Positions 24,505 through 30,884 of a DNA stretch of 64,000 bases are shown here, piece after piece. Source of the DNA: Halorussus marinus (lineage in GTDB: Archaea > Halobacteriota > Halobacteria > Halobacteriales > Haladaptataceae). The DNA lies in NCBI RefSeq assembly GCF_004765795.1, contig NZ_SBIV01000001.1, forward strand, positions 62,001 to 126,000, read 5' to 3'. The notes beneath the pieces were generated by a model, which was given only the letters and a program-made list of their open reading frames with translations, did no database searches and was not told the DNA's origin. Within the stretch, counting starts at the first letter, position 1. Every line of letters begins with the position of its first letter. The position numbers and the translations under genes are program-made.

Positions 24505-24579
24505 ATGCGGTAGCTGTGCAGTGGCGGTAGTGCGGTGGCTGTGCAGTGGCGGTAGTGCGGTGGCTGTGCGGTGGCGGGG
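24505..24579. repeat. three tandem copies of a 25-bp repeat
   Basis: Three head-to-tail units of 25 bp at 24505-24529, 24530-24554 and 24555-24579. Units one and two differ at two positions; the third has decayed at its right end. The unit contains a core GGCTGTGCAGTGGCGGTA. It lies in the non-coding gap between hpt and tRNA-Arg(CCU), directly before the half-element. Confidence 0.85.
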
Positions 24580-24595
24580 CGGTTGCGCACGAGAC

Positions 24596-24703
24596 ATTGT
24601 ACCGCGAGCGAACGCAGTGAGCGGAGCGAACGGTGCGAGGAGCGCGGGTTTCATCGACGTTTTACAAGCGAGCGCCGCTCGGGGCGCGAGCGCACTAAAA
24701 GGT
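24596..24703 (+). repeat. half copy of the AACCTTTT-tipped repeat element
   Basis: The stretch shares the order of segments with 30732-30876: GTACCGCGAGCGAACGCAGT, then a GAGCG-rich part, TTTCATC(A/G)ACGTTTT, AAGCGAG and CGAGCGCA(C/G)TAAAAGGT. Only the right half is present; the left inverted-repeat arm seen at 30501 is missing. On the minus strand it gives a T-run (ACCTTTTAG) downstream of the tRNA-Arg(CCU) region. Confidence 0.75.
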
Positions 24704-24705
24704 CG

Positions 24706-24724
24706 ACGGGCGTGACGGGATTCG
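24706..24724 (-). repeat. duplicated 3' end of tRNA-Arg(CCU) (probable att scar)
   Basis: Nineteen bases identical to 24837-24855, which is the 3' end of tRNA-Arg(CCU) with its discriminator. It lies 131 bp downstream of the real tRNA end, and similarity continues imperfectly into the T-arm. Integrases that use tRNA genes leave exactly this kind of direct repeat. Confidence 0.7.
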
Positions 24725-24782
24725 GAACCGGAGCAAGACGGTCCGGGCGTGCGGCCCTGCGGGCCGTTCCGGGCTGTGGCTT

Positions 24783-24801
24783 GTGGGGTTCGAACCCGCA
24801 C
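24783..24801 (-). other. tRNA T-arm-like remnant between the direct repeats
   Basis: On the minus strand GTGCGGGTTCGAACCCCAC forms a T-stem and TTCGAAC loop resembling the T-arm of a tRNA, without any acceptor or anticodon arm. It sits between the two copies of the tRNA-Arg 3' end and may be a second tRNA fragment carried by the lost element. Confidence 0.45.
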
Positions 24802-24837
24802 GCTTCGTTCTCGGTCTCGCGTTGCTCGACACGAGAA

Positions 24838-24910
24838 CGGGCGTGACGGGATTCGAACCCGCGGTCGGGAGGTTAGGAACCTCCCGCCCTCTCCACTAGG
24901 CCACACGCCC
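24838..24910 (-). tRNA. tRNA-Arg (anticodon CCU)
   Basis: The minus strand folds into a full cloverleaf: 7-bp acceptor stem GGGCGTG/CACGCCC, D-stem GCCT/GGGC, anticodon stem GGAGG/CCTCC with loop TTCCTAA (anticodon CCT, decoding AGG), 5-nt variable loop and T-arm with TTCGAAT. The discriminator is G and CCA is not encoded. The 5' end is 13 bp from the tatA stop, so it may be released from a tatA transcript. Confidence 0.93.
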
Positions 24911-25212: not shown

Positions 25213-25295
25213 GCTCGGTGTAGCGCCTCGGGAACCGACCCCGCGGCGTCGACTCCGGAACTGTCTTGTCTCCGACACCGAGACGTCTACACACG

Positions 25296-25775
25296 ATGGT
25301 AGACGTAGGCGATCACGCACCCGACTTCACCGCACCGCTCGCCGACGGCGACGTCTCGGAGTTCACCCTCTCGGACCACCTCGACGAAGCGCCGCTCGTG
25401 CTGGCGTTCTTCCCCGGCGCGTTCACCAGCGTCTGCACGGCGGAGCTCTGTACGTTCGAGTCCGAGCTCGCCGCCTACGAGGACGTCGGCGCGACGGTGT
25501 ACGGCATCAGCGTCGACTCGCCGTTCGCGCTGAACGAGTTCCGCGATCGGGAGGGACTCAGCTTCGGGTTGGTCAGCGACTCCAACAAGGGGATCGTCGA
25601 CGACTACGACGTCGTGATGGATTTCGCCGACCTCGGCTACTACGGGGTCGCCAAGCGCGCCGTCTTCGTCGTCGACGGGGACCGAACGGTCACCTACCGG
25701 TGGGTCAGCGACGACCCGGGCGTCGAACCCGACTACGACGCGGTCGAGGCGGCCGCCGCCGACGCCGCGGAGTAG
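25296..25775 (+). CDS. peroxiredoxin, BCP/PrxQ type
   Basis: 159 residues from ATG 25296 (MVDVGDHAPDF). The peroxidatic cysteine is C47 in PGAFTSVCTAEL; C52 lies five residues on, the spacing of the resolving cysteine in BCP/PrxQ enzymes. It reduces peroxides with thiols in the cytosol. The rest follows the thioredoxin fold, with VYGISVDSPFALNEF and RAVFVVDGDRTVTYRWV. It is divergent from tatA. Confidence 0.94.
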   Translation: MVDVGDHAPDFTAPLADGDVSEFTLSDHLDEAPLVLAFFPGAFTSVCTAELCTFESELAAYEDVGATVYGISVDSPFALNEFRDREGLSFGLVSDSNKGIVDDYDVVMDFADLGYYGVAKRAVFVVDGDRTVTYRWVSDDPGVEPDYDAVEAAAADAAE

Positions 25776-25809
25776 CCGCCCCGACCGGTCGCCGGCCGCG
25801 GGCCGAGAG

Positions 25810-30500: not shown

Positions 30501-30876
30501 AACCTTTTGCAGCGGTCGGCGCGTGAACGCGCCTCCCTTGGAAAACGTTGATGAAAAACCTGCGTCACCCTTTCAGTCGCTTCGCTCCTTCGGGGGTTCC
30601 TCGGTCCGCTCGCTCGGGCTTCGCCTTCGCTCGCGGCGGATGACCGTGTACGACGGAGAAGGGACGAGCCAAGCGAGAGTAGGATGCGTCTCGGCTGGTG
30701 TCGCGTTCCGTTGCGGTAGAGTACGAGTCGCTGTACCGCGAGCGAACGCAGTGAGCGAGCGGACAAAGCGACGACCGGAGCGAAGCGGAGGGAGGAGCGC
30801 CGTGTTTTTCATCAACGTTTTCCAAGCGAGGGAGTGACGAGCCGACGGCTCGCCCTCCCGAGCGCAGTAAAAGGTT
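30501..30876. repeat. AACCTTTT-tipped inverted-repeat element between mscS and SRP RNA
   Basis: The two ends are inverted copies: the left end AACCTTTTGC ... GGAAAACGTTGATGAAAAAC (30501-30559) is matched by the reverse complement of the right end, TTTTTCATCAACGTTTTCC ... AGTAAAAGGTT. The arms are about 60-75 bp with gaps; the middle is rich in GCGAGCGAACGCAGTGAGCG. It has no ORF of credible quality. Each tip offers a T-run to the transcript running into it: mscS from the left and SRP RNA from the right. Confidence 0.75.
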
Positions 30877-30884
30877 GTATGAAT

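Follow-up and report, generated by a model that had tools for sequence, protein, structure and literature searches.

Elements that lack a recombinase and are mobilised by others include cis-mobilisable elements (CIMEs), which derive from ICEs, are flanked by att sites and move in trans, and are kilobases long and gene-bearing. The haloarchaeal inserts described here resemble CIMEs in their att-like flanks, the lack of a recombinase and, as we infer, movement in trans, but they are gene-free, only about 100 bp long and located behind many tRNA genes. Integron cassette arrays, in which hairpin-bearing modules are stacked at one att site, might be likened, by arrangement alone, to the hairpin modules stacked behind some of these tRNAs. 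Among haloarchaeal repeats, the available part of the report on SMR-A of Haloquadratum walsbyi describes a palindromic element of ~110 bp that inserts into palindromes, with mobilisation unknown; SMRs cause no target duplication there and target IS605-type elements (PMC3119063). The tRNA-associated inserts share with SMR-A, as portrayed in that part, the haloarchaeal host, the palindromic structure, the size (63-251 bp in 36 cases, 108 bp in the copy studied here) and the absence of genes, but their targets are the 3' ends of genes, where they leave a second 22-nt copy. Fragments of tRNA genes also persist after integrations of 9-23 kb (PMC9897764), again as partial copies downstream of a whole tRNA, although in the available part of that source every copy flanks a large element. 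Finally, some casposons, which encode Cas1, target tRNA genes with recognition of the T-loop motif TCAAATC (PMC6614799, available part); tRNA targets and involvement of a T-loop motif are common to both systems, but casposon insertion duplicates 14-15 bp with the T-loop outside, whereas the type-B and type-C inserts repeat tRNA nt 52/53-73.

The window, a 64,000-bp stretch of the Halorussus marinus genome (G000), contains one such insert behind tRNA-Arg(CCU) (Table 1). The earlier note on this DNA described a 19-nt perfect direct repeat covering the discriminator, the 3' strand of the acceptor and part of the T-arm. This description is accurate: 24706-24724 and 24837-24855 are identical at 19/19 positions (92% over 25 nt), and the repeat extends one base outside the gene. 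The probability that a given 19-mer recurs by chance within 1.5 kb is ~5e-9. The T-arm-like fragment noted between the two copies (24783-24801) is real as well and is better interpreted as an inverted T-arm. Along its own strand, the tRNA is followed by hairpin 1, the inverted T-arm, a paired core and the displaced copy, the last being a 23-nt version of nt 52-73 with an extra C in the T-loop. The insert proper (24730-24837, 108 bp) forms a double hairpin, and the repeat unit is 131 bp. The covariance model R1, built from type-B cores of ten sequences, matches 24713-24802 (G000:C1:86713-86802) with E 1.7e-16, a value that is not independent because this copy belonged to the training set. The window copy belongs to a haloarchaeal insert family and has decayed slightly; Rfam gave nothing above threshold on it. 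The earlier note proposed to look elsewhere in the genome for integrase genes carrying a matching att site; the 17-nt tail has no additional site in G000 at 0 or 1 mismatch.

Table 1. Features of the tRNA-Arg(CCU) locus and its insert (positions in the window)
Feature	Position	Strand	Evidence
tRNA-Arg(CCU) gene, host	24838..24910	-	ARAGORN + Rfam RF00005, 65.3 bits
Tail in gene, tRNA nt 52-73, attL-like	24838..24859	-	repeat alignment
Hairpin 1 of insert, begins at first base past tRNA, 30 nt	24808..24837	-	fold
Inverted T-arm, pairs with displaced tail	24786..24798		repeat comparison + fold
Conserved type-B core hairpin	24730..24785	-	model R1
Displaced copy of tRNA nt 52-73 + one extra C, attR-like	24707..24729	-	alignment

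Several other features lie near this locus. The displaced tail is followed by a hairpin repeat, CCTTTTA(G/C)TGCGCTCG (24686-24705), which recurs at 30858-30877 and is also present behind tRNA-Arg(CCU) of relatives. At 24506-24580, 25-bp units TGCGGTRGCTGTGCAGTGGCGGTAG occur three times in tandem, the third unit being 80% identical. A tRNA-Ser(CGA) reported by ARAGORN at 25707-25782 is probably false, and an open frame on the opposite strand (25266-25775) overlaps it.

The insert belongs to a large family. R1 matches were detected in 49 of 59 relatives, the richest genome containing 38 copies, and the 30 best loci are all located behind a tRNA. In three genomes, where matches weaker than about E 0.003 were left out, 63 of the 84 matches follow a tRNA on the same strand at a distance of no more than 600 bp, and at least one core is present at 52 of 132 tRNAs. 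From the remaining 21 matches, 14 regions were examined by eye. One of these holds three tandem copies at an intron-bearing tRNA-Pro that the tRNA search had overlooked. Fragments of tRNA tails account for three more (L159, L161, L166) and the 3' end of aspS for another (L163). The other nine lie away from tRNAs and from known gene ends; they comprise another palindrome (L160), three cores nested inside a different palindromic repeat (L168-L170) and five in other DNA (L162, L164, L165, L167, L171). Tandem identical units are found at L158. Cores of two other types, A and C, stack behind the same tRNA in relatives and, overall, between a quarter and a half of the tRNA genes carry elements in the genomes counted. 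In a scan of the phylum with the core model, 50 of 294 genomes were positive, all from one order, of which three other genomes in the phylum listing were R1-negative. An exact pattern run against 84,980 species genomes occurred at 41 sites, which by title are all haloarchaeal; 38 of them immediately follow a whole tRNA, and the other 3 lie at tRNA fragments. Thus, among the genomes searched, the family is restricted to one archaeal order. In phage, viral and plasmid collections, the only matches were a weak one to a 987-kb Natrinema replicon and another, short, in Micrococcus, and Rfam searches of seven and nine insert-bearing loci returned only a tRNA and a neighbouring leader. We found no description of these elements in a literature search of open-licence PMC papers, nor in the available parts of PMC9897764, PMC3119063, PMC6563490 and PMC6614799, so that this family of tiny gene-free elements behind haloarchaeal tRNA genes is apparently undescribed.

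Two further observations concern unusual settings of the cores. One relative (G015) contains a second palindromic repeat, GGYGGACTGAAAGGGCGAG ... GAGGGCTTTC, with 81 matches genome-wide (control 0); at least two of its copies (loci L301-L320) have type-B cores nested within them, and L311 resembles an empty site of this repeat. In Halorubrum sp. CSM-61 (L204), a tRNA-Gly fragment has a core immediately inside its T-loop, and hairpin 1 is missing.

In the alignment of 127 core hits (118 distinct), 93.7% of the cells are paired and double-sided changes occur in 14 of 18 pairs, values reached by none of 500 shuffles, although these counts lean towards the structure because the alignment was fitted to it. 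Type-B cores are oriented along the tRNA strand. Folding of the core, however, favours this strand no more than composition predicts (31/118 vs 167/590 shuffled), and the changes in stem 2 include C-G to G-C flips and few non-Watson-Crick pairs (G.T 9 vs A.C 6). The lack of a strand preference beyond composition fits a DNA hairpin, or arm-to-arm copying, better than an RNA. Hairpin 1 slightly favours the tRNA strand (24/36 vs 185/360 shuffled). The inverted arm matches the T-arm of its own host: this is the best of 74 tails in 9 of 36 inserts, and the median rank of the own host is 0.06 compared with 0.63 in 96 unoccupied controls. No MITE-like end-to-end inverted repeats were noticed when the inserts were read by eye, though hairpins are present.

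For comparisons among genomes, we used stretches around tRNAs. G000 yields 71 tRNA hits, of which 45 are chromosomal after omission of 26 on two arrays; in 13 of the 45, the tRNA's own 3' end recurs within the next 300 bp downstream (score at least 34), and the remaining 32 score 20 or less. Non-cognate tails reached the cut-off against such downstream regions in only 2 of 651 trials. Besides Arg(CCU), the hosts include Gly, Lys, two other Arg, Asp (two genes), both Met, Ser and Leu tRNAs and one displaced Gly copy. The two arrays (C7:31-36 kb and C11:67-75 kb; L081, L082) have many tails in common and are virus- or plasmid-like. Across three congeners (G000, G003, G010), copies are present at 36 of 133 tRNAs, counted without the array hits, a G010 tRNA that borders a contig end and a G003 hit of 29 bits, and the sets differ by genome: Ala(CGC), Phe and Asn are occupied in G010 alone and Ser(TGA) in G003 alone of the three, and Ser(GGA) and Leu(CAA) in G000 alone among the genomes where these were read. 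At tRNA-Arg(CCU), where the earlier note had suggested comparing syntenic loci for a full-size element, a tail copy occurs at least once in 13 of 18 congeneric genomes and is absent from the other 5, and simple patterns detect stacked cores of type A in 9, of type B in 6 and of type C in 3. Occupancy is patchy and fast-changing.

The boundaries of the elements are precise. In 90 elements, the tail copy runs from nt 52/53 to nt 73, with nt 53-73 identical in 72; the left edge is at nt 52 in 58, and the right edge falls 0-2 nt beyond nt 73 in 66. As in CIMEs, direct repeats flank the elements on both ends, and one of them completes the gene. Type-A modules at tRNA-Arg(CCU) of relatives (for example L005, L013 and L015) repeat the last 13-14 nt only, a length that resembles the casposase duplication. 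The cleanest empty-site pair is tRNA-Tyr, where the G003 flank past the displaced tail aligns from base 0 with the empty G000 flank over 220 bp, followed by Ala(CGC); only a few of the 21 occupied/empty pairs align right at the tail, the other orthologous flanks being mostly too diverged. Small core-bearing DNA has been inserted precisely and recurrently at gene ends. Insert similarity at the same tRNA across species (0.66, 20 pairs) gives no signal of vertical inheritance of the cores relative to other comparisons (0.665 and 0.661), which fits turnover but also shows that little sequence is conserved.

Insertion at a protein-coding gene is the most informative case because the tRNA tails are too conserved to reveal an exchange of ends: the 72 of 90 identical tails would also be expected from target duplication. 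A core hit in G015 drew our attention to the end of a gene that we take to be aspS from its translated end. We read 23 aspS loci, 20 of which were readable after exclusion of three where the end was not found, and a second gene end lies shortly downstream in five (G015, G004, G005, G033, G029). Between the gene-borne and displaced ends, 22 codons differ and 19 of the differences are synonymous (2/2, 4/4, 5/5, 7/8 and 1/3, respectively), including Ser AGC/TCG and Arg CGT/AGG; the probability of this excess is 3e-5 if 0.43 of the differences are expected to be synonymous, a rough estimate of our own, and 0.008 at 0.6. G029, with 1/3, is the weak case and may be an old insertion. The codons suggest that the two ends had separate histories as genes in different lineages before the insertion joined them. 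A target duplication would lose coding constraint at once, and the mostly synonymous differences therefore argue against it. At aspS, the insert appears to carry its own gene end, as in an attP x attB exchange, and the displaced end would be the old one. The extension from aspS to the tRNA elements relies on two cases, since a type-B core was found in two of the five aspS inserts, G015 (by the model) and G033 (by eye). By analogy with aspS, the gene-borne tail at tRNA-Arg(CCU) would be the copy brought by the insert.

We consider it most likely, with a probability of roughly 60%, that the 108-bp insert is an integrase-less miniature integrative element of a haloarchaeal family, presumably mobilised in trans. 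Such an element would circularise, and its attP, with the inverted arm and core on one side, the tail with the T-loop as crossover core, and hairpin 1 on the other side, would recombine with a gene end through the action of a tyrosine integrase supplied in trans by a resident or visiting larger element. The gene end would be restored by the element, and the cost to the host would therefore be low. All four tested integrase-like open reading frames that adjoin loci with a core and a tail fragment match PF00589 (tyrosine integrases), and G000 has 13 PF00589 hits, 11 above the cut-off; integrases adjoining the elements may, however, only reflect large elements that use the same tRNAs. Because tRNAs with different tails carry the core, the att sites must have switched often; this, and the nine core loci that lie away from tRNAs and known gene ends, count against the proposal. 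A tentative extension, which we would put somewhat short of even odds, is that these are a distinct class of mobile DNA, ~100-bp attP-only elements that would be the integrase counterpart of MITEs. They would exchange the 3' ends of tRNA genes and protein genes among haloarchaeal lineages, and a shared T-loop crossover sequence would let them move from one tRNA to another.

Alternatively, a hairpin-recognising transposase, ssDNA-acting or Cas1-like, could cut at the T-arm and the gene end and create a fixed 22-bp target duplication. The constant nt 52/53-73 repeat, the hairpin architecture, the inverted arm tailored to the host T-arm and the few copies within non-gene palindromes are all compatible with such transposition, but the aspS ends do not look like a duplication and, in the available part of PMC6614799, the 14-15 bp duplicated by the casposase leave outside the T-loop motif that here is inside; we regard this explanation as rather unlikely. 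Integrase-type entry at the 3' end of a gene is best supported given the precise repeats, the empty orthologous site and the exchanged aspS ends, so that the earlier interpretation as an integration scar is half right in mode. It is wrong in scale: instead of the scar of one lost large element, there is a family of small inserts that have conserved cores and no genes and that occupy many tRNAs in nearly all haloarchaea tested. Integrase elements do occupy such sites; in G000, an apparent 5.4-kb integrated element with a PF00589 hit (C3:370310-375892) is bordered on one side by tRNA-Gly(CCC) and on the other by a near-complete displaced copy, which is itself trailed by a tail copy. Independent decay of large elements is nevertheless improbable because every deletion would need identical stopping points, and the tandem copies, together with the common core and the similar size seen across many tRNAs of 49 of the 59 genomes, also speak against it.

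That the core is a functional structured RNA in the tRNA trailer, with a role in processing or regulation, would agree with its conserved pairing, the orientation of type-B cores and the slight strand bias of hairpin 1. This possibility is nonetheless very improbable considering that core folding shows no strand bias past composition, that G.T and A.C in stem 2 number 9 and 6, that occupancy varies among congeners and that inserts are found at aspS too. Local duplication or rearrangement of the tRNA through replication slippage, to which the tandem identical units could point, is practically untenable, given that a core common to unrelated tRNAs cannot arise locally.

If the proposed miniature integrative elements are real, a copy of a tRNA tail would not always mark the former presence of a virus or plasmid. 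At least a quarter of the tRNA genes would carry elements in many members of one archaeal order, gene 3' ends would undergo horizontal replacement by elements small enough to escape notice, and integrase systems would possess miniature parasites of their own.
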